From: Actinophytocola xanthii
GTDB taxonomy: Bacteria > Actinomycetota > Actinomycetes > Mycobacteriales > Pseudonocardiaceae
Direction of reading: 5' to 3'
Length of the DNA stretch: 53,895 nucleotides
Assembly: GCF_001921205.1 (NCBI RefSeq)
Contig: NZ_MSIE01000036.1
Span: forward strand, 1-53,895
The notes beneath the pieces are model-generated. The model was not told where the DNA came from. It searched no databases and saw nothing but the letters and a program-made list of their open reading frames with translations. Shown piece by piece: positions 5,298 to 30,777 of this stretch. The translations under genes were made by a program, and so were the position numbers. Position 1 is the stretch's first letter, and each line of letters starts with the position of its first letter.

Positions 5298-6416
5298 TCA
5301 GTGTTTCGGCGGCAGCATAGGCATCACCACGTAACGGAGGTCGGTCTCGCCGGGCTCGGCGGCGCGGAAGGTCGTCGCCCGCATGCCGGGCTGGATCTCG
5401 AGCCGGACCCGGCCGCCCAGGAACGGGCGGAGGGCGTCGGTCAGGAAACGGGACTGGTAGGCCTGGGGAGTACGGCCACCGCTCACGTCCGCCTTGACCG
5501 ACTCCTCCGCCTCCCCGGCCCGCTGGTCGGCCCCGCGCAGGCGGATCTCGCCGTCGCCCACCTCGAGCAGCAGGACCCCGCGAGCGTCGGTGTAGAGGCC
5601 GACCCGCCGCACCGCGCCGGCCATTGCGTCGGCGTCCACCTCGACCCGGGTGTCCACGTCCGACAGGGCCACCTTCGACTCGTGCAGGAAGCTGCCGTCC
5701 AACACGGAGGTGGCCGCGTGGCTGGTGCCCCCGCCGCGCCGCCAGACCAGCGCGAACCGGTCGCGGTCGGCATGCAGCGCCACCGGGCCGGTCGGGTCGA
5801 CCTGTTTCGCGATCTCCGCGAGCAGTGCTGCCGGCACCAGCGCGTCGACCGGCAGCCCGGTCGGTTGCCAGGGCAGCCTGGCCACCGCCATCTGGTACCG
5901 GTCGGTCGCCACCAGCACCAGCCGGTCGCCCTCGGCCCGGATCCGAACCCCGGTGAACATCGGCAGCGCGTCGTCCCGGGAGGCCGCCGACGCGACGGTC
6001 GTGAGCGCCGTGGCGAACGCCGCGCCGTCCACGGTGCCGACCGCCGGGGGCGGCGGCGCGACACCGGGATGCGCGTCGACATCGAGCAGTGGCAGCGCGA
6101 ACCGCGCGCCCGGGGCCCGGATGGCGAGCTTCGACCCCTCCACCACCATCCGCACCTGCTCGAGCTCGAGTGCCCGCAGGGTGTCGGCCAGCGGCTTGGC
6201 CGGCACCAGCACGCGCCCCTCGGTGTGCACGACCGCCGCCCGCTCCACCCGTCCGGCCCGCTCCCGGTCGGTGGCGGCGAGCGTCACCCCGTCCCCGTCG
6301 GCGGTGAGCAGCACTCCGGACAGCACCGGGTCGATCAGCTTGCCCGGCACGAGCCGGACGAGCGCCGACGCGGCGGCGGCGAGGTCGGCCGTCGTGACGG
6401 TCAGGTCGAGGTCCAT
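5298..6416 (-). CDS. DNA polymerase III beta subunit (sliding clamp) paralogue
   Basis: A 372-residue protein with the three-domain beta-clamp layout (about 1-120, 121-245, 246-372). Landmarks include VPAKPLADTLRAL, MFTGVRIRAEGDRLVLVATDRYQMAVARL and the C-terminal LRYVVMPMLPPKH. The typical clamp ends with a VMPMRL-type tail; here the last residues are divergent, which may alter partner binding. The gene is not beside dnaA, recF or gyrB, so it is probably a second clamp rather than the housekeeping one. It lies 46 bp downstream of an MFS transporter gene on the same strand and may be co-transcribed with it. Confidence 0.88.
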   Translation of the reverse strand: MDLDLTVTTADLAAAASALVRLVPGKLIDPVLSGVLLTADGDGVTLAATDRERAGRVERAAVVHTEGRVLVPAKPLADTLRALELEQVRMVVEGSKLAIRAPGARFALPLLDVDAHPGVAPPPPAVGTVDGAAFATALTTVASAASRDDALPMFTGVRIRAEGDRLVLVATDRYQMAVARLPWQPTGLPVDALVPAALLAEIAKQVDPTGPVALHADRDRFALVWRRGGGTSHAATSVLDGSFLHESKVALSDVDTRVEVDADAMAGAVRRVGLYTDARGVLLLEVGDGEIRLRGADQRAGEAEESVKADVSGGRTPQAYQSRFLTDALRPFLGGRVRLEIQPGMRATTFRAAEPGETDLRYVVMPMLPPKH

Positions 6417-6462
6417 GGCGTCACGCTAGACCGGGGCACCGACAAAGACCGCCGAGGCCAGA

Positions 6463-7701
6463 TCAGCGGGCGGGAACCGGTAACCGAGCGGCCTCGTCGA
6501 CCGGCTGTTCGGCCACCGTGCCCCGGCGCAGCCACACCACGAACGCGATCAGCAGGCCCGCGCCGCTCCCGACGAGGAACGAGGCCGGGACCCCCACGTG
6601 GTCCACCAGGTAACCGCTGGTGGAGTGGCCGATGGCGAGTCCGAGCGTGACGGCGGTCACCACCCAGCCGAACGCCTCGGTCGCCGCTCCGCTCGGGGTC
6701 ACCAGCTCGATCGCGGTCGAGTGCATGGTGGACTGCGGCGTGATCCAGATACCGGCCACCAGCAGCGCGAGCGAGAGCCCGAGCAGGCTGGTGGGGATCG
6801 CCAGCGGCGCGACCAGCAACGCGAACATCGCGAGCAACGCGGGCAGCCGCAGGTGCATCGGCCGAGGCCACGGGCGGGTGGCGTAGAACAGGCCGAACGC
6901 GACCGAGGTCAGCGACCACAGCGCCAGCATCAGCCCGCCGAGCGGGGCGTGACCCGCATTGGTGGCGGCCGCGGGCACCGCGACCTCGACGAATCCGACC
7001 GTGACGCCGAAGCCCAGCGCGGCGAGCGCGACGGTGCGCATTCCGGGGTAGGCGAGTGCGCCGAGGAGTGCGTCGGTCGCCGCCCTGGTCGGCCCCACGG
7101 CGCGCACCGCTCGGGTGAGCGCGAAGCCGGTGCTGCCGAGCACCATGCACACCGCGGCGAGCACGACACCCGTGCCGGCCCACGGCGCGGCGACGAGGAC
7201 GCCGGCCAGCGCCGGCCCCAGGATGAAGAAGACCTCCAGGCTGATCGCCTCGTAGGCGTAGGCCGCATGCCGGATGGGGCCGGCCGGTACGAGGTGCACC
7301 CACAACGCCCGGGAGGCGGCGCCCACCATCGGTTCGGTCAGGCCCACCGCCGCGCCGAGCACGACGAGCACCACGGCCGGCTGCCGGTGCTCGACCGCGA
7401 GCACCGCGACCGTCACCGTGACCACGAACAACGCCACGGTGACCAGCAGCGGACGGGTGGGGCCCAGCCGGTCCATCACCCGGCCCTGGATCACCGCGCC
7501 CACCGCGACGCCGACGAGCGTGCCCGCGGACATCGCGCCGGCGACGGCGAACGAGCCGGTCTCCCGCTGGACGTAGAGCAGCAGGGAGAGACCGATCATC
7601 GCGATCGGCATCCTGGCCAGCAGTGACGCGATCACCGGCCAACCGGCGCCGGGCGCGGTCAGCGCGGCACGGTAGTCCGAGAGGCGCGCGGAGTGGGACA
7701 C
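6463..7701 (-). CDS. MFS transporter
   Basis: A 412-residue protein with about 12 hydrophobic segments and MFS features: LLARMPIAMIGLSLLLYVQ early, and a loop GRVMDRLGPTRPLL between helices 2 and 3 of the GxxxDRxGxR type. I chose GTG 7701 (MSHSARLSDYRAAL) because the longer frame upstream to 7917 encodes a non-membrane leader that contains the regulatory palindrome. Substrate unknown; relatives are drug or metabolite exporters. A perfect 16-bp palindrome 21 bp before the start suggests control by a dedicated repressor. Confidence 0.85.
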   Translation of the reverse strand: MSHSARLSDYRAALTAPGAGWPVIASLLARMPIAMIGLSLLLYVQRETGSFAVAGAMSAGTLVGVAVGAVIQGRVMDRLGPTRPLLVTVALFVVTVTVAVLAVEHRQPAVVLVVLGAAVGLTEPMVGAASRALWVHLVPAGPIRHAAYAYEAISLEVFFILGPALAGVLVAAPWAGTGVVLAAVCMVLGSTGFALTRAVRAVGPTRAATDALLGALAYPGMRTVALAALGFGVTVGFVEVAVPAAATNAGHAPLGGLMLALWSLTSVAFGLFYATRPWPRPMHLRLPALLAMFALLVAPLAIPTSLLGLSLALLVAGIWITPQSTMHSTAIELVTPSGAATEAFGWVVTAVTLGLAIGHSTSGYLVDHVGVPASFLVGSGAGLLIAFVVWLRRGTVAEQPVDEAARLPVPAR

Positions 7702-20599: not shown

Positions 20600-21526
20600 T
20601 CAGACCGCCGCCGCGCCGAGCGTGTGCAGGGCCTCCCGTACGTGCCCACCCGTCCCGGCCAGGGCCGCCGCCGCCTGCTTGGCGTCCACGCCCGACAGCA
20701 GGTGGACCAGGGCGACCTTGAGGTCCCCCTGGGCCTCGTCCAGCGCCAGCGAGCACTCGTGCAGGTCCAGGCCGGTCGCCTCACGCAGGATGCGCAGCGT
20801 CCGGCCACGCAGCTTCGCGTTGGTCGCCCGCATGCTCACCATGAGGTTCGAGTAGGTCCGGCCGAGCTTGACCATGACCGCCGTCGAGAAGGAGGTCAGC
20901 ACGATCTTCTGCGCCGTCCCGGCCTTCATCCTGGTGGATCCGGCGACGACCTCGGGGCCGGTGTCGACCTCGATCAGCACGTCGATGTCCATCAGCCGGG
21001 TGGCGTGCGGGTTGCTGAACACGAGCCCGGTACGGGCGCCGAGCGCGCCGGCGGCCCGCAGCGCGCCGAGTACGAACGGCGTCCGGCCGGAGGCGGTCAG
21101 GCCGAGCACGAAGTCGCCGGGGGCGGCCGTGGCCCGCAACTCGGCGGCGCCGGCCTCCTCGTCGTCCTCGGCGTCCTCGACCGCGCTCTCGAACGCCCGC
21201 ATGCCGCCGGCGTGGTGCACGACGAACCACTCGGGCGGCGCGTTGTAGGTCGGCGCGAGCTCGGCCGCGTCCAGCGTCGCCATCCGGCCGGAGGTCCCGG
21301 CACCGACGTAGTGGACGCGGTGCCCGGTCCGCAGCGCCTCCGCGGCCCAGTCGACCGCGGTGGCCAGCGCCGGCAGCGTCGCCGCCACCGCGTCCGGCAC
21401 CAGCCGGTCCTCGGCGTTGATCGCCCGCAGTACGTCCAGGGTGGACAGCTGGTCCAGGTCGGTGGTGCGCGGGTTCCGCCGCTCGGTCGGCGAGTCCACG
21501 TGCACAGCCTGCCGTGGAACGGTCAT
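20600..21526 (-). CDS. murQ: N-acetylmuramic acid 6-phosphate etherase
   Basis: A 308-residue SIS-domain etherase that removes the lactyl group from MurNAc-6-phosphate to give GlcNAc-6-phosphate. The family blocks TERRNPRTTDLDQLSTLDVLRAIN, YVGAGTSGRMATLDAAELAPTY and LTASGRTPFVLGAL are present, and the phosphate-binding TASGRTPF and catalytic Glu in DAAE are conserved. The C-terminal helical domain closes with MVSMRATNAKLRGR. It starts 19 bp after murR. This commits the cell to use of recovered cell-wall sugar. Confidence 0.95.
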   Translation of the reverse strand: MTVPRQAVHVDSPTERRNPRTTDLDQLSTLDVLRAINAEDRLVPDAVAATLPALATAVDWAAEALRTGHRVHYVGAGTSGRMATLDAAELAPTYNAPPEWFVVHHAGGMRAFESAVEDAEDDEEAGAAELRATAAPGDFVLGLTASGRTPFVLGALRAAGALGARTGLVFSNPHATRLMDIDVLIEVDTGPEVVAGSTRMKAGTAQKIVLTSFSTAVMVKLGRTYSNLMVSMRATNAKLRGRTLRILREATGLDLHECSLALDEAQGDLKVALVHLLSGVDAKQAAAALAGTGGHVREALHTLGAAAV

Positions 21527-21545
21527 GTTGCTGCCTCCCCCAGGA

Positions 21546-22463
21546 TCATTTACCGGTCTCCCGCGCCTTGCGGCGACCGTCGTGGCGGGTCTCCAGCCGG
21601 TGGCTGCCCACCGCGTCCCGGGTCTCGTCCAGCGCCTTCATCGACTCCGTCAGGTGGCGCTGCGCCACGCCGATGAACAGGCAGTCGATGACCGTGAGCT
21701 GGGCGATACGGCTCGCCATCGCGCCAGAGCGGAAGGTGGTCTCCCGAGCGGCGGTGGTGAGCACGAGGTCGGCGACCTCGCTGATCGGCGCGGTCGGGAA
21801 GTTCGTCAGGGCGACGGTGGTCGCCCCGGCCCGACGTGCCTCGCGTAGTGCCTCGACGGTGTCCACGGTCGCGCCGGTGTGCGAGATCGCGAACGCGACG
21901 TCGCCCTTGCCGAGCACGGCGGCGGAGGTCAGCATGATGTGGGTGTCGCTCCAGGCGAAGCTCACCCTGCCGATCCGGTGCAGCTTCTGCTGGAGGTCGG
22001 CGGCGACGAACGCGCTCGCACCGACCCCGTAGACGTCGACACGCCCGGCTCCCGCGACCGCGTCGACGACCTTCTCCAGCACCGCGATGTCGAGCTGGGA
22101 GGAGGTCTCCTCGACCGCCCGCGCGTCGGCGAAGGTCACCTTGCCGACCACGCTGGCGAGGTCGTCGTCCGGGCCGATCTCCCCGCCGAGGTCGCGCTCG
22201 GCGCGTGCCTCGGAGCGGGCGGTGTCGGCGGCGAGCGCGATGCGCAGCTCGGGGTAGCCGCCCACGCCGATGGCCTTGCAGAACCGGGTGACCGTGGTCT
22301 CGCTGGTGCCGGCCGCCTCGGCGACTTCGGTGATGCTCCGGCGGGCGACGGTCGAGGGGCTGTCCAGGACCACCTTGGCCACGCGCTGCTCCGCGCGGGC
22401 CAAACCGGGCAGCAATGACCGGATTCGGACCAGAGGACTTGACTCAGTGTGTTGTGTGGGCAT
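21546..22463 (-). CDS. murR: MurR/RpiR family regulator of MurNAc use
   Basis: A 305-residue regulator from ATG 22463; a GTG at 22478 is an in-frame alternative. The N-terminal HTH_6 domain (about 10-85) has RSITEVAEAAGTSETTVTRFCKAIGVGGYPELRIAL. The C-terminal SIS domain (about 120-260) has VYGVGASAFVAADLQQKLHRIG and ISHTGATVDTVEAL, which binds a sugar phosphate, probably MurNAc-6-P. It lies directly upstream of murQ on the same strand. A motif shared with the nagZ promoter lies 16 bp before the ATG, so it likely represses itself and the whole cluster. Confidence 0.9.
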   Translation of the reverse strand: MPTQHTESSPLVRIRSLLPGLARAEQRVAKVVLDSPSTVARRSITEVAEAAGTSETTVTRFCKAIGVGGYPELRIALAADTARSEARAERDLGGEIGPDDDLASVVGKVTFADARAVEETSSQLDIAVLEKVVDAVAGAGRVDVYGVGASAFVAADLQQKLHRIGRVSFAWSDTHIMLTSAAVLGKGDVAFAISHTGATVDTVEALREARRAGATTVALTNFPTAPISEVADLVLTTAARETTFRSGAMASRIAQLTVIDCLFIGVAQRHLTESMKALDETRDAVGSHRLETRHDGRRKARETGK

Positions 22464-22478
22464 GACACTCGCGATCAC

Positions 22479-22492
22479 GTGGGAAACTTACC
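22479..22492 (-). promoter_or_regulatory. Candidate MurR operator at murR
   Basis: On the minus strand the site reads GGTAAGTTTCCCAC. It differs at one base from GGTAAGTTACCCAC upstream of nagZ. It is just before the murR start, so binding there would block translation start or the promoter. Its role as a MurR site is inferred from the shared motif. Confidence 0.6.
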
Positions 22493-22523
22493 AACAGACA
22501 TGTAGGACAACGAGGAGGTCGGC

Positions 22524-22640
22524 GTTGTCCGTCGACAACGCTACCCGTCCGGGGTTGAAACTTCAGGGGACGTCGGGCTATCTCAACATCGGAATCGACG
22601 ATGACCCCTGGGTCGTTAGCGTTTCAACCAGTTTTCGTCC
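22524..22640. other. Gap between the AmiE-like gene and murR with inverted repeats
   Basis: GTTGTC-CGTC-GACAAC (22524-22539) is a 6-bp-arm inverted repeat. GGTTGAAAC (22553-22561) pairs with GTTTCAACC (22621-22629), with CAGGGG/CCCCTG pairing nested inside. The long hairpin lies just after the AmiE-like stop and may be a terminator or attenuator ahead of murR. Confidence 0.45.
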
Positions 22641-24416
22641 CTATCGTGACCTGCGCTGCCAGGCGTCTGGTTGCAGCTTGTGGGGTTCTTTCTCACCGTT
22701 GAGGAGCAATCGGCCACGCTCTGTAACTATAATCCCGTCGACATGGACGCCGCGCCCGGTGTACCGGGTGTTGGTGACGAAGTGCCAGCGCAGCGTGATC
22801 TCCGCAGCGTGCGGCACGTGTGCACGCACCTGCCACCACGCTCGGTGGCCCGATCCGGAGAGGGAAACCACCTCGCCGTCGGGGGCGCCACGTCCCGAAA
22901 CTCTCAGCGGGACGGGGGTCCAGGTGGTGCCGTCGACACTCGCCTCGAGCGTAAGCGGGTCCGTTATCTCAGAGTCCACAAAGGCATTGAACTTCACCTC
23001 AACGTGGCCGCGTGGTTGCAGTGAGACAGTGGTGAGAGTGGACTGAGACGCGTCTCCGATTCCCGAGTACCACGAGTCGCGGCCGTGCTGGGGTCGGACG
23101 GCCAGTGCCTTCGCCAGCCCGGTCCCCAGCGTCTCGCGCGCGAGGTTGATCGAGCCCCAGCCCCGGCTGGGGTGCACCCGGTTGGTGAGCAGGATCGCGA
23201 AGGACCGGGAGGAGAGGTCGATGACCAGGTCCGTCCCGGTGAACCCGGTGTGGCCGGCCGTGCGCGGGCCGGCGAGCGCACCCATGAACCAGAGCTGGTT
23301 GAGCTCGAACCCGTAGCCGTGGGGGTTGGCCGGGAACGCCTCGTTGTGGTTCTCGAGCATCAGCGCCAACGTCTCGGGACGCAGAATCCTGGCTCCCCGG
23401 TAGCTGCCGCCGTTGAGGATGGTCTGCGCCAGGATGGCCAGGTCGTCGGCGGTGGAGAAGATGCCGGCGTGCCCCGCGACCCCGCCGAGCGACCAGGCGT
23501 TCTCGTCGTGCACCGAGCCGCGCACCATCCCGCGCGGTGGCGCGGTCTGGAACTCGGTGGCCGCGATCCGGTCCAGCTTCGAGGCCGGCGGGTTGTAGCC
23601 GGTGTCGACCATGCGCAGCGGCCTGGTGATCCGGTCGGCGACCACCTCGTCCAGCCGCTCCCCGGTCAGCCGCTCGACCAGGACGCCGAGCGTGATCAGG
23701 TTGAGGTCGGAGTACTCGTAGTTCGTGCCGGGCGTGGTCCGCGGTGCGATGTCCATCACCGCCTGGATACGCGACGGGATGTCCGGGTAGCGCGACCAGA
23801 GCGGGATCCAGGACACCAGCCCGGAGGTGTGGGTGAGCAGTTGGGCGACGGTGATCGACTCCTTGCCGTTCACCCCGAACTCCGGCAGGTAGGTCGACAC
23901 CGGCGCCTCGAGGTCCACCTGGCCGGCCTCGACCAGCTGCATCACCACGAGCGAGGTGAACAGCTTGGACACCGAGGCCATGTCGAAGATGGTGTTGCGG
24001 CGCATCGGCACCTTCTCCGCGTCCGGCAGCTCGGTGCCGGCAGCGTCGGCGTAGCGCACCGCGTAGCCGCTGGTGGAACGGCTCACCACCGCGCCGTCGT
24101 GGGCGAGCACGGTCACCGCGCCGGAGTACAGCGGGTGGTCCTTGACCAGCGGGTCGGGATGCGTCCTCGTCCACTCGTCGATCTTGGTCAGCGCGGCGTC
24201 GATCGGTGCCGGGTCGAGCCCGACCCGTCCCGGCGGAGCGTCCCGTAACACGGTCCGCGGTGAGGCGAACGCGGGCTGTGGGCGGTCGAACCTGCCCTCG
24301 GCGTCGCGGCCGTGCGACGCCGTTCCCGCCGCCGCGCCCGCAGCCGTGGTGATGGTGGCGAGCACGGCGACCAACGCGCCGAGGACCCGACCGGAAAGGA
24401 CACTTCGCCTGGACAT
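22641..24416 (-). CDS. AmiE-like serine hydrolase (penicillin-binding/beta-lactamase fold), secreted
   Basis: A 591-residue exported enzyme with a signal peptide (MSRRSVLSGRVLGALVAVLATI). The serine-hydrolase motif SVSK (Ser148, Lys151) and Tyr-Ser-Asp (YSDLN) match the beta-lactamase/esterase family. A C-terminal segment (about 430-590) is a beta-sandwich-like extension. The Bacillus homologue AmiE removes the peptide from MurNAc. ATG 24416 is preferred for its CGAGG site over GTG 24422. It lies 16 bp after namZ in the nagZ-namZ-amiE run. Confidence 0.8.
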   Translation of the reverse strand: MSRRSVLSGRVLGALVAVLATITTAAGAAAGTASHGRDAEGRFDRPQPAFASPRTVLRDAPPGRVGLDPAPIDAALTKIDEWTRTHPDPLVKDHPLYSGAVTVLAHDGAVVSRSTSGYAVRYADAAGTELPDAEKVPMRRNTIFDMASVSKLFTSLVVMQLVEAGQVDLEAPVSTYLPEFGVNGKESITVAQLLTHTSGLVSWIPLWSRYPDIPSRIQAVMDIAPRTTPGTNYEYSDLNLITLGVLVERLTGERLDEVVADRITRPLRMVDTGYNPPASKLDRIAATEFQTAPPRGMVRGSVHDENAWSLGGVAGHAGIFSTADDLAILAQTILNGGSYRGARILRPETLALMLENHNEAFPANPHGYGFELNQLWFMGALAGPRTAGHTGFTGTDLVIDLSSRSFAILLTNRVHPSRGWGSINLARETLGTGLAKALAVRPQHGRDSWYSGIGDASQSTLTTVSLQPRGHVEVKFNAFVDSEITDPLTLEASVDGTTWTPVPLRVSGRGAPDGEVVSLSGSGHRAWWQVRAHVPHAAEITLRWHFVTNTRYTGRGVHVDGIIVTERGRLLLNGEKEPHKLQPDAWQRRSR

Positions 24417-24432
24417 GGTCACCTCGGGGTAG

Positions 24433-25701
24433 TCACCGGTAGATGAGGTACCGCTCCCGCTTCGCGTTGAAGGCCGCGAGCTCCGACCGCCAGGCGCCGA
24501 TCACCTCGTCGACACCGGCGCCGGCGTCGATCATCTTGCGCAGCCGGTCCGAGCCGGACAGCTTGTCGATGAAGTTGTCCGGCCGCCAGGCGAACACGTC
24601 GGGATGGGTCCGCTTCGCGGCGACGAGCATCGTGATCGCGGTCCGGATCGCCTGGAAGCGGTACGGGTCGGTGATGTGCACCTGCACGCCACCGCAGGTC
24701 TGGCCGACCCACTTGTGGAAGGTGGGGACGAAGTACTGCTCGCGCAGCCGCACCCCGGGCAGCCCGGCCTCGTTCACGGCCTCGGCCCACCGCCAGTCGA
24801 CGCCCGGGGCCCCGATGATCTCGAACGGCCGCGTCGTGCCCCGTCCCTCGGAGAACACCGTGCCCTCGAACAGGCAGGTGCCCGGGTAGGCCAACGCCGT
24901 CTCCGGCGTCGGCACGTTGGGGCTGGGCAGCACCCAGTGCAGACCCGTGTCGAGGAACAGCTGGTCGCGGCGCCAGTTGCGGACCTTGACGATCTCCAGG
25001 CTGCGCAGCCGTCCGCCGGCGTCGGTCGGCAGGAACTCCGCGTCGTAGAACCGGGCCGCCTCGCCCACGGTCATGCCGTGCTGCTGGGCGATCGGCTTGC
25101 GGCCGACACCCGAGGCGTAGGCCGGGTCCAGCAGCGGGCCGTACGCGCGGCCCCCGATCGGGTTGGGCCGGTCGAGCACGACGAAGTCGATGTTGGTGGC
25201 CACCGCCGCCTGCATCGCGTAGTACAGGCTCCAGATGTAGGTGTAGAAGCGCGCCCCGATGTCGGCGATGTCGAAGACCAGCATGTCGATGCCGGCCTTG
25301 CGGAACTGGTCGGCGATCTTGGGGATCGGGGCGAGGTAGGTGTCGTAGACCGGGATCTGGGTGCGCGGGTCGAGGTAGTCGCCCTCGGAGCCGCCGGCCT
25401 GGGCCGTTCCGCGGAAGCCGTGTTCCGGCCCGAAGACCGCGGTCGGGGGAACGCCGGCGGCCACCATCGAGTCGACGATGTGGATCTGGTTCTGGAGCAC
25501 GCCGGTGGGGTTGGTCATCACTCCCACCTTGCGGCCGCGGAACCGCCGCCAGCCGTCGGCGGCGAGCTGGTCGGACGCCGGGATCACCCGGCGCTCGTGC
25601 CAGCCGGTCCTGGTGGCGTCCGCCCCCGCAGTGGCGGAGGAGGCCACCGTGAGCGCCGGCGCGGCCAGCGCGGAGGTGGTCAGGAAACGGCGACGGTCCA
25701 T
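24433..25701 (-). CDS. namZ: Exo-beta-N-acetylmuramidase NamZ (DUF1343), Tat-exported
   Basis: A 422-residue protein. The twin-arginine signal MDRRRFLTTSALAAPALTVASSA directs Tat export. The DUF1343 landmarks are PEHGFRG (near 87), VFDIADIGARFYTYIWSL, VLDRPNPIGG and GTTRPFEIIGAPG. The Bacillus enzyme (YbbC) releases MurNAc from the non-reducing ends of glycan, complementing NagZ. ATG 25701 follows the nagZ stop after two bases (TGA-GC-ATG), so translation is coupled. Confidence 0.9.
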   Translation of the reverse strand: MDRRRFLTTSALAAPALTVASSATAGADATRTGWHERRVIPASDQLAADGWRRFRGRKVGVMTNPTGVLQNQIHIVDSMVAAGVPPTAVFGPEHGFRGTAQAGGSEGDYLDPRTQIPVYDTYLAPIPKIADQFRKAGIDMLVFDIADIGARFYTYIWSLYYAMQAAVATNIDFVVLDRPNPIGGRAYGPLLDPAYASGVGRKPIAQQHGMTVGEAARFYDAEFLPTDAGGRLRSLEIVKVRNWRRDQLFLDTGLHWVLPSPNVPTPETALAYPGTCLFEGTVFSEGRGTTRPFEIIGAPGVDWRWAEAVNEAGLPGVRLREQYFVPTFHKWVGQTCGGVQVHITDPYRFQAIRTAITMLVAAKRTHPDVFAWRPDNFIDKLSGSDRLRKMIDAGAGVDEVIGAWRSELAAFNAKRERYLIYR

Positions 25702-25703
25702 GC

Positions 25704-27557
25704 TCACCACGTCAATCCGGTGTCGTACGGGTACAGGACGGTGTTCGGGTCGCCGCCGACCGGGATGTCGACGGGGAGCTTGCCGGTGGGGGAGCGCTCG
25801 CCGAGCAGGACCTTGGTCAGGGCCTCCATGGCGTTGGCCCGCCAGCCGTAGGTCGCCACCCAGGTGGGCGCGTCGACGAAACCGGCGTCGTAGGGGATCT
25901 GGGAGGCCACCGCCACGACCGGCTTGCCGGTGGCCAGCAGCGCGTTGACCAGCGCCCGTTGCTGGGGCCGGCCGCTCAGGTTGTTGGTCAGCACGACCAC
26001 CAGGTCCGATCCGCGGGCCGCCGTGACGGCCTGGTCGATCGTGGCCTGGGTGGGGCTGGTGCCGGTGGGCAGCGGGGTCGCCGTGGCGCCGCGCCTGCCG
26101 ATGGCCTGGGCCAGCCACTCGGGGCTGCGGTGGGTGAGGCCGGTCGTGGCGTCGCCGATTCCGGTGACCAGGACGCGGCCGGGGTTGCCGCTGATCGGCA
26201 GCAGGCCGGCGTCGTTGCGCACCACGGTCGTCGTGCGGTCGGTGACAGCCTGGATCGCGGCGACGTTGGCGGGCGTCCCGACCTTCTGGTCGACCTTGCG
26301 CTCGTCGACGAGGGGGTGGGTGAGGATGCCGCGCTTGAGCTTGAGCAGCAGGATCCGCAGCAGGCTCTGGTCGATGCGCCGTTCGGTGAGGCGCCCGCTC
26401 TCCACGGCCTGCCGGACGGCGTTGAGCGCCAGCGGCAGGTCCGGCGGCATGAGCAGCTGGTCCACCCCGGCCTCCAGTGCCATCACCGGGATCTCCTCGG
26501 CCGGGAACACGTTCGCGCCGCTCATCCCGAGGGAGTCGGTGACGATGACGCCCCGGTAGCCGAGCTCCTGACGCAGCAGGCCGGTCATGATCGGCTTGGA
26601 GAGGGTGGCCGGGACACCCGTCGGGTCGAGGCTGGGCACCTGGATGTGCGCGGTCATGATCGAGTCGATGCCGGCGTCGATCGCGGCCTGGAACGGCGGC
26701 AGGTCGATCGCGCGCCACTCGGCCTCGGTGCGTCCGATGTTCGGCAGACCGGTGTGGCTGTCGGTCGCGGCGTCGCCGTGGCCCGGGAAGTGCTTCGCCG
26801 AGGACGAGACGGTCTCCGGGATGCGGCCGCCCTCCTGGTAGCCCTCGACTTCGGCAGCGACCATGTCGCTGGTCAGCTCGGGGCGGGAGGAGAAGGAACG
26901 GGCGCCGATGACCGGGTTGGCCGGGTTGGAGTTGACGTCCGCGACCGGGGCGAAGTTCTGGTTGATGCCCATCGCCCGCAGCTCACGGCCGTTGATCTTG
27001 GCGACGGTCCGGGCGTCGGCCGTGCTGCGTCCGGCGCCCACGGCCATGCTGGCCGGGAACTCGGTGGCGGGTGACTCGAGCCGGGTGACGTTGCCGCCCT
27101 CCTGGTCGATCGCGACGATCAGCGGGAGGTGGGTGTTGTGCCTGATCGCGGCGCGCTGAAGGCCGTTGGAGAAGGCCGCCACCTGACGTGGGTTGTCCAC
27201 GTTGTCGGTACCGCTGTTGTTGAAGTAGATGACGCCGCCGACACCGAACTTCTCGATGACCTGGGCAGGGGTGTCCACCCCGTACTCGGCCTGGTTGGTC
27301 GGGTGCGCCTCGTCGGCCGCCTTGCCCCAGACGGACACGACGAACAGCTGGGCGATCTTCTGCTCGAGCGACATGCCGCGCAGCTGGGTGCGGGCCTGGG
27401 CGAGCGCGAGCGCCTCGGGGTCGGCCTGGGCGGGGTTGGCCCGGGGTGAGCCGGCGAGCGGGTTGGCGGGGGAGAAGCCGCTAACCACGGCCGTACCGGC
27501 GGTCACGGCGATCGCCACGGCGAGGAGGCGACGGGCGGAGGAACGGGACATGAGCAC
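25704..27557 (-). CDS. nagZ: Beta-N-acetylglucosaminidase NagZ (GH3), secreted
   Basis: A 617-residue GH3 enzyme. The signal peptide ends near residue 46. The NagZ active-site loop KHFPGHGDAATDSH has Lys255-His256, with the catalytic dyad Asp266-His268, and the nucleophile is Asp341 in VTDSLGMSGA. A C-terminal domain (about 430-617), as in Bacillus NagZ and unlike the short Gram-negative enzyme, is present. It removes GlcNAc from muropeptides outside the membrane. GTG 27557 sits 5 bp after GGGAGG; ATG 27551 is an alternative. First gene of the nagZ-namZ-amiE run. Confidence 0.92.
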   Translation of the reverse strand: MLMSRSSARRLLAVAIAVTAGTAVVSGFSPANPLAGSPRANPAQADPEALALAQARTQLRGMSLEQKIAQLFVVSVWGKAADEAHPTNQAEYGVDTPAQVIEKFGVGGVIYFNNSGTDNVDNPRQVAAFSNGLQRAAIRHNTHLPLIVAIDQEGGNVTRLESPATEFPASMAVGAGRSTADARTVAKINGRELRAMGINQNFAPVADVNSNPANPVIGARSFSSRPELTSDMVAAEVEGYQEGGRIPETVSSSAKHFPGHGDAATDSHTGLPNIGRTEAEWRAIDLPPFQAAIDAGIDSIMTAHIQVPSLDPTGVPATLSKPIMTGLLRQELGYRGVIVTDSLGMSGANVFPAEEIPVMALEAGVDQLLMPPDLPLALNAVRQAVESGRLTERRIDQSLLRILLLKLKRGILTHPLVDERKVDQKVGTPANVAAIQAVTDRTTTVVRNDAGLLPISGNPGRVLVTGIGDATTGLTHRSPEWLAQAIGRRGATATPLPTGTSPTQATIDQAVTAARGSDLVVVLTNNLSGRPQQRALVNALLATGKPVVAVASQIPYDAGFVDAPTWVATYGWRANAMEALTKVLLGERSPTGKLPVDIPVGGDPNTVLYPYDTGLTW

Positions 27558-27622
27558 TACGGCCTCCCTGGCGGGCCAGCAGGACCACTACGTAACCTCT
27601 TAACCGACTGTTCGTAGCAACC

Positions 27623-27636
27623 GGTAAGTTACCCAC
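27623..27636 (+). promoter_or_regulatory. Candidate MurR operator upstream of nagZ
   Basis: GGTAAGTTACCCAC lies 66 bp upstream of the nagZ start; GGTAAGTTACC is a palindrome around one base. The same sequence with one change lies at the murR start. The copy here is on the plus strand, in the opposite orientation to the murR copy. Confidence 0.55.
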
Positions 27637-27745
27637 ACCAGGTAGTGCGGGGCAATCACGCGTTCGGCCCAAACAACCTAGCCGCTGGGAGCGCGTATCG
27701 GCTCGCCAAGAACGGGAGCACGCGCGGAGACCTGGGCACATGAAC

Positions 27746-28165: not shown

Positions 28166-28996
28166 TCACCTCTTCCGCCGGCGGTGGATGCCATACCAGG
28201 TGGCCCCCGCCGTCGCGATCGCTCCGATCCCGATCGCGGTGACCGCGACGGCCGTTCCCGGCCTGCCGTGGAAGCGTGAACGCAGCGAGACGGGCTTGGT
28301 GAACTCGAGGATCGGCCACCCGCGTTCGAGGGCGAGTGCCCGCAACCCCCGATCCGGGTTGACCACGGTCGGGTGCCCCACCGCCTCCAGCATGGGAAGG
28401 TCGGTGATCGAGTCGGAGTAGGCGTGGCTGGCGGCGAGGTCGTACCCCTCCTCCGCGGCGAGCTCCTTGATGGCGGTGGCCTTGTTCTGGCCGTAGCAGT
28501 AGAACTCGATCTCGCCCGTGTACCGCCCGTTCACCGCGACCATGCGGGTGCCCATGGCCCGGGTGGCCCCCACCATCGCCGAGATGGGCGAGACGATCTC
28601 GTCCCCGGACGCGGACACCACGACGACGTCGCGTCCCTCGGCGGTGTGGTCGGCGATCAGCTCCGCGGCCTCGGCGTAGACGAGCGGGTCGACGATGTCG
28701 TGCAGCGTCTCCTCGACGACGGCTCGCACCTGCTGCACGTCCCAGCCGGTGCAGAGGGCGGTCAGGTGCGCCCGCATCCGTTCGACCTGGTCCGCGTCCG
28801 CCCCTGAGGCGGCGAACACGAACTGGGCGTAGGCCCCCTTGAGAGCGGCTCGCCGATTGATCAACCCGTTGCGGAGGAAGGGGCGACTGAACGCCAACGT
28901 GCTCGACTTGGCGATGACCGTCTTGTCCAGGTCGAAGAATGCCGCCGCCCGCTGCGGTTCTGGTGGTTCGGCGCGCTTCGTCACGGTCGCCAGCAT
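28166..28996 (-). CDS. HAD-superfamily phosphatase, SerB-like (Rv3661-like)
   Basis: A 276-residue protein from ATG 28996; GTG 28984 is an alternative start. HAD motif I is FFDLDKT (about 20-26), motif II is VVSASGDE, and motif III is SDSITDLPMLEAVGHP. A C-terminal hydrophobic segment (AVAVTAIGIGAIATAGATWYGI) with a basic tail anchors it in the membrane. Relatives dephosphorylate serine phosphate or lipid-linked phosphates; the C-terminal anchor favours a membrane substrate. It is next to the 6C RNA and tad locus, as in Rv3661. Substrate unproven. Confidence 0.85.
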   Translation of the reverse strand: MLATVTKRAEPPEPQRAAAFFDLDKTVIAKSSTLAFSRPFLRNGLINRRAALKGAYAQFVFAASGADADQVERMRAHLTALCTGWDVQQVRAVVEETLHDIVDPLVYAEAAELIADHTAEGRDVVVVSASGDEIVSPISAMVGATRAMGTRMVAVNGRYTGEIEFYCYGQNKATAIKELAAEEGYDLAASHAYSDSITDLPMLEAVGHPTVVNPDRGLRALALERGWPILEFTKPVSLRSRFHGRPGTAVAVTAIGIGAIATAGATWYGIHRRRKR

Positions 28997-29099
28997 AGGA
29001 GCGTGGACGCTCCGGGCCGGGCAACCGCCGTCGCGCCAGGGGCAAACGCGCCGGTGAGAGCAAGTTGCGAACACAGTCCGGAGCCAAGGGGCTACAGTA

Positions 29100-29192
29100 G
29101 TGAGGCTCAGCCTTGCTGAGCGGTTCAGCCCGACCCCCCGGGGCTGAACCTCGACGACCCCCGTCCCTCCCCCCTGGCGGGGGTCGTCCACT
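29100..29192 (+). ncRNA. 6C small RNA
   Basis: Two adjacent hairpins have loops with six consecutive C. Hairpin 1: GGTTCAGCCC (29122-29131) with GGGCTGAACC (29141-29150), loop GACCCCCCG. Hairpin 2: GACGACCCCCG (29153-29163) with CGGGGGTCGTC (29178-29188), loop with CCCCCC at 29169-29174. A -10-like TACAGT lies at 29093-29098. An upstream stem GCTCAGC/GCTGAGC (29105-29121) precedes them. Mycobacterial 6C (B11) lies in the same place, between Rv3660c and Rv3661, and represses targets through its C loops. Ends are approximate. Confidence 0.92.
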
Positions 29193-29425
29193 ATCTCCCC
29201 CTCTTCGGCTGCTGAGCCATTTCGGGAGCCCTTCGCCATGCGCGCTCGCCTGCCTGTTCCTGCCCGCTGGCGCACCCAGCTTGCTCTGGTCCCCAGGCTC
29301 ACTTATCCACAACTGCTCCAGCCATCCACATGTTGATCTTCCCCCGTTGAGCCGGCCCCCGCACAGGTCGATCGTGGTCAGCAAGGCCAGCAACCGCCTG
29401 GCCCACACGCGATCGGGGGAGTCAG

Positions 29426-30525
29426 GTGGATCAGAACCGCCCATTGGCCTTCGTGGAACACGAAGACCTGCTCGACGACGTACTCAAACTCGCCGCCGCC
29501 GCCGGCTGCGACCTCGAATGCGTCCCGGACATCGCCGCTACCCGTTCCAGCTGGGCCACGGCCACTGCCGTCATCCTCGACGCCTCCACAGCCGCCCAGT
29601 GCGCCCAAGCCGCCTTACCCCGCCGCGACGCCGTGTTCCTGGTCTCCACCGACCCGGCTCCCCGAACCCTCTGGGAACGAGCGGTGGAAATCGGCGCCGA
29701 ACGCGTCCTCGAGCTCCCCGGTGCCGAACCCTGGCTGGTCAACGCCCTCGCCGACGCCACCGACGCCCCGGCCCTCACCACCGGCCGAGCCGTGGCCGTA
29801 CTCGGCGGCCGAGGCGGCGCCGGAGCGTCGGTCTTCGCCGCAGCCCTCGGCCTGACGGCGATACGCACCGGCCAGCACGCCCTCCTCATCGACTGCGACC
29901 CCTTGGGCGGTGGGCTCGACCTCGTCCTCGGCGCGGAGCTCGAACAGGGCCTGCGCTGGCCCGACATGCAGCTGAGAGCCGGCCGGGTAGCCGCGTCCTC
30001 CCTGCACGAGGCGCTTCCCACGCGCACCCGCGGAAACGCACGGCTGACCCTGCTGTCCGGCGCCAGGCAAGGCGCGTCTCCCGCCCCCGACGCCGTCGCA
30101 GCCGTACTGGAAGCCGGCCGTAGAGCAGGCGAAACGGTGATCTGCGACCTCCCGCGCACCCTCGGCCCCAGCGCCCAGGCCGCCCTGACCCGAGCCGACC
30201 TGACGGTCGTGGTCGTCCCGGCGAGGTACGGGCGTGCGCCTCGGCCCGTCTCCTCGCCGATCACCTGGCCGAGCTGGGTGTCACCCCCCAACTCGTCGTC
30301 CGCGGCCCCGCCCCTGGCGGCCTCACCCCGACCGAGGTCTCCCGAGCCACCGGGCTCCCCGTCCTCACCGCCATGCGCCCCGAACCCAACCTCCCCCAAA
30401 CCCTCGACCGCGGCCACTTCTCGCCCCGCCCCAAAAGCCCTCTCTCCAAAGCCGCCCGCACCGCCCTCACCGCACTGGCCGCCCACACCCCCCGCCCCAT
30501 CAGACCCCAACGAGCCACGCCATGA
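29426..30525 (+). CDS. ssd: Septum site-determining Ssd/CpaE-like protein, apparent frameshift
   Basis: A ParA/MinD-fold protein of the Rv3660c (Ssd) family. A receiver-like N-terminus is followed by a deviant Walker A (GGRGGAGAS, near 130) and LLIDCDPLGGGLDL. At about 30223 the frame breaks after VVVVPA. Adding one base restores EVRACASARLLADHLAELGV and a normal C-terminus to a stop at 30523-30525. Without the correction the frame runs to 30544 with an unnatural Pro/Ser-rich tail. This is either a true inactivating deletion or a sequencing error. It is the first gene of the tad run. Confidence 0.82.
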
Positions 30526-30777
30526 CCGCCCTGACCAGGCGTGACATGGCAACTCTGACCGCTGACCGCTTAGCCAGGAGGCCTTCTGCGGTCGCGGCGG
30601 CTCCACTGCTCACGCGCCCTGCCCCACGCGCCCGTGCGAGGTGCGTCATGAGCGCCCCAACCAACCGAACTCCCCATCCCAGAAAGCCCTCTCCGAGCGG
30701 CGCATGCCTCGATCGTCCCCGGCTCCCCGCCGGCTCCCACCTCAGTCCCAGCCCGTCCGATCCCTGAGAGCCCAGCC
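30526..30777. other. Short intergenic stretch before the Cys-rich ORF
   Basis: No convincing gene. The frames that cross it are shadows of the frameshifted ssd region. Confidence 0.4.

Follow-up and report, generated by a model that had tools for sequence, protein, structure and literature searches.

The nagZ-namZ-amiE-murR-murQ cluster

The window considered here is a stretch of 53,895 nucleotides from Actinophytocola xanthii (the host; contig NZ_MSIE01000036.1), and our subject is a cluster of five minus-strand genes within it, nagZ, namZ, amiE, murR and murQ (positions 20600-27557; Table 1), which points to the salvage of N-acetylmuramic acid (MurNAc) from the cell wall. The original prediction, made from the letters of the window and its open reading frames, had announced a full gene set on one strand, and all five genes are indeed found there. 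Its count of ‘five enzymes and the regulator’ has to be corrected to four enzymes and one regulator, and its statement that the cluster contains neither a transporter nor a kinase is borne out for the five genes. Intergenic gaps amount to 2 bp (nagZ/namZ, the ATG of namZ lying 2 bases past the nagZ stop codon), 10 bp (namZ/amiE), 162 bp (amiE/murR) and 19 bp (murR/murQ). Gene order was compared with the loci of 19 relatives from the Pseudonocardiaceae-like host family (‘the family’ in what follows; 29 genomes in our sample, with murQ in 27 relatives, 8 of which are outside this comparison). The order HAD-nagZ-namZ-amiE-murR-murQ, which includes a neighboring phosphatase gene, is kept in all 19, and this constancy argues that the cluster is more than a chance arrangement. 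Three family relatives have small additional genes in the murR-amiE interval.

The best matches of NagZ among solved structures are 3bmx/4gyj, that is, B. subtilis YbbD/NagZ (E 4e-88), with both domains aligned and with alignment of the KHFPGHGD..DSH loop and the VTDSL motif. For NamZ, both Pfam domains score above cut-off, the NamZ_C match being the sole one in the genome at E 0.001, and its N-terminus (MDRRRFL) is twin-arginine-like. MurQ matches the solved etherase 4s12 (E 1.4e-72) and scores 290 bits with TIGR00274, just under the cut-off of 302. For AmiE, the nearest NCBIfam model is PBP4B/YfeW (169 bits, below its cut-off of 385), and no amidase-specific model was reached; the MurR and RpiR models of NCBIfam match murR, all below their equivalog cut-offs (MurR: 148 vs. 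408 bits). We regard both labels as putative, resting on superfamily membership and synteny (amiE is syntenic in all 19 relatives compared). The export signals of NagZ, NamZ (RRRFL) and AmiE (SRRSVL) were read by eye from the N-termini. AmiE exhibits an additional C-terminal part of ~150 residues (22641-23130) that matches an InhA-like MAM domain weakly and under the cut-off, and this extension may serve wall binding.

Table 1. Genes, candidate operators and distant partner loci (unprefixed positions refer to the window; C and L denote contigs and loci elsewhere).
Feature	Position	Strand	Assignment and support
nagZ	25704..27557	-	two-domain Bacillus YbbD-type GH3 beta-N-acetylglucosaminidase, predicted secreted; PF00933 293 bits, PF01915 53 bits
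namZ	24433..25701	-	putative exo-beta-N-acetylmuramidase; NamZ_N PF07075 231 bits, NamZ_C PF20732 190.5 bits
amiE	22641..24422	-	amiE-type serine hydrolase, candidate MurNAc-L-Ala amidase; PF00144 231 bits
murR	21546..22478	-	RpiR-family regulator, HTH_6 PF01418 and SIS PF01380; start GTG 22478 or ATG 22463
murQ	20600..21526	-	MurNAc-6-phosphate etherase; NF003915 367 bits, cut-off 168
Candidate MurR operator	22479..22495	-	palindrome GTTGGTAAGTTTCCCAC, immediately 5' of murR
Second, weaker candidate MurR operator	27623..27633	-	GGTAACTTACC, 5' of nagZ
anmK	C187:7105-8319		anhydro-MurNAc kinase; PF03702 364 bits; NF007146 592 bits, cut-off 440
Sodium:solute symporter (SSS) gene	C187:8323-9951		PF00474 92 bits vs. 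cut-off 22.8
ABC sugar importer	C187, binding protein 5522-7024		binding-protein gene and two permease genes, back to back with anmK
Kinase-MurQ fusions (relatives)	L074:8759-10609; L256:3163-4965; L257:2345-4123; L258:2200-3921		single frames

Candidate import and phosphorylation genes elsewhere in the genome

As the original prediction had proposed, the entire host genome (8.34 Mb in 204 contigs, completeness 97.7%) was searched for murP, using the profiles of the EIIC and glucose-family EIIB domains of the phosphotransferase system (PTS). A MurP-type PTS was not found with these two profiles: EIIB (PF00367) yields no match, and the single EIIC match (PF02378) is a mannitol-type protein encoded beside a 1-phosphofructokinase gene, so that a MurP elsewhere in this genome was rejected as a candidate. 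Although completeness and contig number would allow for a MurP-type PTS hidden in the small part of the genome that the assembly lacks, we consider this extremely improbable: four relatives of genus g2, which are 99-100% complete, likewise lack a glucose-family EIIB and have kept murQ. Within the family such an EIIB is present in 23 of 29 genomes, and the six without it are the host, the four g2 genomes and G188. Five of these six possess murQ, which indicates that genomes devoid of a glucose-family PTS retain MurQ.

The earlier claim that import and phosphorylation of MurNAc must use a route that could not be named hence stands in part: a MurP-type PTS was not detected, but the genome does contain AnmK, two BadF-type kinases, a sodium:solute symporter (SSS) and an ATP-binding cassette (ABC) sugar importer. 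Contig C187 was reached by tracing the murQ-linked ABC permease of a relative into the host genome. There, anmK is followed on the same strand, after 3 bp, by the SSS gene.

The nearest solved relative of this SSS family is SiaT of P. mirabilis (5nv9; E 1e-62), described in the portions of PMC5931594 drawn upon here as a carrier of an acidic N-acetyl sugar. The columns of SiaT Ser60 and Thr63 show no variation among all 81 sequences, the column of Thr58 is occupied by Glu, and invariant Arg residues are located 3 positions before and 4 positions after the column of SiaT Arg135. Since the SSS loci were retrieved with two patterns, one of which includes RLFA, conservation of one of these two Arg residues is in part built into the retrieval. 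The residues are compatible with an acidic sugar but are no proof of one.

Genomic association of the symporter and anmK with murQ

Co-occurrence was counted across 200 genomes of the order, with E-value limits that differ among the murQ, binding-protein, anmK, SSS and C197-type kinase searches, and with few first-look candidates scored per genome (at most 7 to 11). The murQ-positive set comprises 89 of 104 genomes with a match, the 15 with just weak, mostly short matches being left out. In this sample anmK is present in 56 genomes and the SSS in 30, and murQ is found in all 56 and all 30 of them. In 28 of its 30 genomes the SSS gene shares a strand with anmK and is no more than 3 kb away from it, and the other two (genus g2) have no anmK match. 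Within the family, murQ, the SSS and the C197-type kinase introduced below are each detected in 28 of 29 genomes and anmK in 26; G188, the only member without murQ, likewise lacks matches to the SSS, anmK and the C197-type kinase. Outside the family, all 30 anmK genomes possess murQ, and 31 genomes have murQ without an anmK match. Fisher tests, which ignore the relatedness of the genomes, yield p values of 1e-12 (SSS and murQ) and 9e-17 (anmK and murQ outside the family).

Physical linkage is found in relatives. In G040 and G175, both outside the family, the SSS gene, anmK and murQ form a single cluster. An SSS-alignment scan of named genomes yielded at least 578 loci, and partners were sought in the flanks of the best 80: anmK is present in 65 of these, murQ in 16 and a BadF-type kinase of the c77 type in 13. 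The murQ-bearing SSS loci are from Nocardia, Streptomyces, Brevibacterium, Paraoerskovia, Ornithinicoccus, Micromonospora, Pseudonocardia and a Rhodanobacteraceae metagenome-assembled genome. Compact clusters that include kinase and regulator genes, some without one of the parts, are seen in Streptomyces, Nocardia, Brevibacterium and Paraoerskovia; in Ornithinicoccus and Micromonospora, murQ, the SSS gene and anmK are adjacent to each other; and the Rhodanobacteraceae genome has namZ and amiE in one locus with the SSS gene, a BadF kinase gene and murQ. Two Nocardia loci (L227 and L241) combine the SSS gene with murQ and a BadF kinase gene and have no anmK in the flanks examined. One further locus (L244) is cut by a contig end. 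Taken together, genomic context ties the symporter and AnmK to murQ, through co-occurrence and the shared loci of relatives and not through the host's own map.

BadF-type kinases

The two BadF-type kinase matches of the host are encoded on contigs C197 and C57. The C197 kinase gene lies two genes behind a NagB-II-like gene, itself divergent from a DasR-like regulator gene, and a DasR-type site with 1 mismatch precedes the NagB-II/C197-kinase genes. The protein matches the MurNAc/GlcNAc kinase chain 8zo3 with E 1e-18 and hexokinase 2e2n better, with E 2e-21 (GlcNAc, N-acetylglucosamine). In a kinase tree of 39 rows, a clade that contains most murQ-adjacent kinases (c77) is separate from the C197-type clade. 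The latter has two murQ-adjacent members in the tree, to which gene coordinates add four genomes (G070, G105, G119 and G033) whose murQ-near kinases the tree leaves out. The C57 kinase is on a long branch and its placement is unsure. It was not our first choice for a MurK, its gene overlapping an AgaS-type gene and sitting among melibiase-like genes, a context which makes a GalNAc pathway likelier.

An attempt to derive MurNAc specificity from the residues of Tannerella MurK was given up for want of a reliable alignment and left just a motif difference. DGWG is present in the host C197 kinase and in every one of the 13 rows that can be read for the murQ-linked clade (6 others are unreadable), and in none of 11 other family genomes, where GGYG (8), DGYG (1), GGNG (1) and AGFG (1) are found.

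The clade of murQ-adjacent kinases also includes a fusion protein. In G043, a frame of 616 residues comprises a BadF kinase (PF01869) at 34-272 and a full MurQ at 313-597, and the MurQ part scores 339 bits with NF003915 and, over the cut-off, 303 bits with TIGR00274. Further kinase-MurQ frames are found in G102 (600 residues), G109 (592) and G199 (573), all four genomes belonging to genus g18 of family f8. Such a fusion could represent a single protein that both makes and splits MurNAc-6-phosphate (MurNAc-6-P), and it ties BadF kinases to the MurQ step.

Proposed pathway and alternatives

By sequence, we observe the gene families described above, the lack of a MurP-type PTS match in the host genome, and the co-occurrence and shared loci of the symporter, anmK and murQ. 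We consider it probable that the cluster covers the extracellular and the last steps of a MurNAc salvage pathway without a PTS, the other half of which is encoded, unlinked, on contig C187. Outside the cell, AmiE would strip stem peptides, NagZ would remove GlcNAc and NamZ would free MurNAc, functions which are established for these families elsewhere. The symporter would then bring in MurNAc and/or 1,6-anhydro-MurNAc, AnmK would make MurNAc-6-P, the C197 BadF-type kinase being a candidate for phosphorylating free MurNAc, and MurQ would cleave MurNAc-6-P into GlcNAc-6-P and D-lactate. MurR presumably controls the cluster. AnmK seems the better supported source of MurNAc-6-P here, for the anhydro sugar only, and free MurNAc would need another kinase.

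With evenly balanced confidence, we put forward a broader proposition: that this SSS family, usually encoded beside anmK, is the missing MurNAc/anhydro-MurNAc importer of many PTS-less actinobacteria, and that the Pseudonocardiaceae-like family has split the pathway in two, one unit with the extracellular and etherase steps under MurR control and another with anmK and the symporter, where most relatives have DasR-type sites, whereas elsewhere the pathway is encoded in one locus, with the kinase even fused to MurQ.

A precedent for an importer, a kinase and MurQ acting without a PTS is MurT-MurK-MurQ of T. forsythia, as given in the accessible passages of PMC5790795 and PMC10465942, the former of which places MurT in the sodium symporter superfamily. 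The T. forsythia genes form one operon, whereas in the host the symporter gene sits beside anmK, on a contig other than that of murQ, and MurT is likened here by description and not by sequence.

Several findings weigh against the proposed salvage pathway. The symporter passes its Pfam cut-off but scores 176 vs. 184 on the NCBIfam SSS superfamily model, just under cut-off, and the carboxylate-binding Arg135, by which SiaT differs from it, aligns with Ala. As many as 59 of the 89 murQ genomes have no match to the host-type SSS, so that this symporter is not a general answer, and in 10 of the 80 best SSS loci neither murQ nor anmK nor one of the kinases was seen. A MurR-type site was not found in these 80 loci either, and the host anmK's own DasR-type site, with 3 mismatches, is no better than chance. 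The known substrate of AnmK is anhydro-MurNAc, and NamZ should yield free MurNAc; neither host BadF match belongs to the murQ-linked c77 clade, the C197 kinase falling instead into a clade linked to DasR/NagB-II. Finally, the same PMC5790795 elsewhere calls MurT of T. forsythia a major facilitator, and with two labels in the passages concerned the precedent is not a clean one.

The position of the two host BadF matches outside the murQ-linked clade also favors a pathway restricted to the anhydro sugar, in which the symporter imports anhydro-MurNAc, AnmK converts it into MurNAc-6-P, and the MurNAc freed by NamZ stays outside or is used otherwise. The SSS loci read for the family pair the symporter gene with anmK and revealed no BadF kinase of the murQ-linked type. 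We nevertheless hold such a restriction to be doubtful, as NamZ is conserved in all 19 family clusters compared, and as the Nocardia loci L227 and L241, with murQ and a BadF kinase and without anmK in their flanks, indicate no fixed tie between this symporter family and the anhydro sugar.

For the salvage pathway proposed above, the route of import and phosphorylation appears narrowed to the symporter-AnmK pair, with putative substrates, and the main rival is the ABC system on C187. This importer (a binding protein and two permeases) would take up MurNAc, and the C197 BadF-type kinase would phosphorylate it. Its binding-protein family is encoded 2-3 kb from murQ in four genomes of genus g46 (G169, G070, G105 and G119), with a C197-type kinase gene in between; kinases of this type are near murQ in G004 and G033 as well. 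A different ABC operon lies behind murQ in G073, G101 and G108, accompanied by a BadF kinase gene in all but G073, and the C187 permease is the host's best match to the murQ-linked permease of this operon (151 bits vs. 113 for the next). In G185 (family f15; L157:6641-16490) a C197-type kinase gene is located between two genes of the C187 binding-protein family, which suggests an amino-sugar uptake locus. Yet only 5 of the 29 family genomes have a match to the binding protein (E 1e-25), vs. 28 with murQ; its gene is adjacent to anmK in the host alone among the three family genomes that have both, and the protein shares just 23% identity with the one linked to murQ in G101. We therefore regard uptake by the ABC system as unlikely.

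In two genomes of family f8 (G191 and G074; L070 and L071), a PTS EIIBC gene is located directly behind murQ, which implies that import differs even within one family. With an ABC system, a PTS or a symporter at different murQ loci, the import step appears to have been swapped between lineages around a constant MurQ.

DasR-type sites before anmK

A palindrome resembling the DasR dre consensus (taken from the part of PMC4398421 used here) is found with at most 2 mismatches before anmK in 28 of 47 upstream regions, compared with 0.2 of 47 for shuffled sequences and 0.1 for permuted palindromes; the regions are from related genomes and thus not independent. The operon may accordingly belong to general amino-sugar metabolism, and since the substrates of the SSS superfamily are many, the symporter could carry another nutrient, its link to murQ and anmK being indirect via a shared amino-sugar or cell-wall regulon. 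That loci shared with murQ and anmK recur in many genera, and that murQ is present in 30 of 30 SSS genomes, makes us view an indirect link as quite improbable, more so than uptake by the ABC system. If the proposed salvage pathway is correct, DasR, an amino-sugar regulator, would also be linked to cell-wall salvage in actinomycetes of a group that produces antibiotics.

Candidate MurR operators

The palindrome GTTGGTAAGTTTCCCAC immediately before murR is a candidate MurR operator. Its core is found ahead of murR in 18 of the 19 family relatives, and GTKRGWAANTTWCYMAC has its sole exact match in the 8.34-Mb genome at 22479..22495. The strict core GGWAANTTWCC occurs at three places in the genome, two of them in the cluster (before murR and before nagZ), vs. 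none for a reversed control; about 4.4 places are expected from the base composition of the window, so that the total is not raised but the concentration in the cluster is. The nagZ-side site GGTAACTTACC is not within 2 mismatches of the 17-mer and is absent before nagZ in all 19 relatives compared.

The original prediction held that a PTS under MurR control elsewhere would make this a standard pathway; none of the three strict sites points to a PTS. Its suggestion to look for sugar ABC systems near other MurR motifs led to none: the third strict site (C119:18789) has no recognisable transport genes nearby, and the 17-mer relaxed to 2 mismatches yields three places, two of which are by eye beside ABC transporters of other types. 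The reversed control likewise yields three, hence these places are attributed to chance. A MurR site was thus dismissed as a pointer to the transporter.

Comparison with known systems

The gene ybbC of B. subtilis is presumably namZ. In the sections of PMC5061867 on which we rely, the B. subtilis cluster reads murQ-murR-murP-amiE-nagZ-ybbC. The gene set for extracellular disassembly, regulation and the etherase step is the same, and the host NagZ is closest to YbbD; however, the host order is nagZ-namZ-amiE-murR-murQ, without murP, and no MurP-type PTS was matched in its genome. According to the same sections, AnmK and MurQ steps meet at MurNAc-6-P in E. coli as they would here, but E. coli imports MurNAc by a PTS, which was not found in the host.

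The absence of MurP is not special to the host. As far as these sections describe it, S. coelicolor (SCO4305-4308) has murQ-murR without murP, together with two adjacent genes of unknown function, by which its cluster differs from that of the host, and still recycles MurNAc; its murQ mutants accumulate MurNAc-6-P, so that import works without MurP (PMC5061867). For M. smegmatis no MurP homologue is reported in the available part of PMC13041923, a 2026 mycobacterial preprint which speaks of an unknown transporter. Hence, as far as these sources go, recycling by murQ-murR without MurP (S. coelicolor) and the combination of a PTS-free importer, a kinase and MurQ (T. forsythia) were already known. 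In a literature search of limited coverage, we found no paper that connects actinobacterial MurNAc uptake with an SSS symporter and AnmK. The symporter-anmK pair provides a named and testable candidate for MurNAc import in part of the actinobacteria devoid of MurP.

Neighboring genes

The gene 5' of nagZ on the same strand (28166-29302) encodes a HAD-IB family phosphatase, with the domain from ~28945, and is syntenic in all 19 family relatives; being 0.6 kb from nagZ, it is probably a unit of its own. Divergent from it lies an Ssd/CpaE-type gene (29426-30544; TIGR03815), present in 18 of the 19 family relatives compared, and the frames behind that gene resemble, by eye, a Tad-type pilus or secretion cluster. 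In genomes of family f15, a gene behind murQ (c16) was considered and set aside as an unrelated sigma factor.

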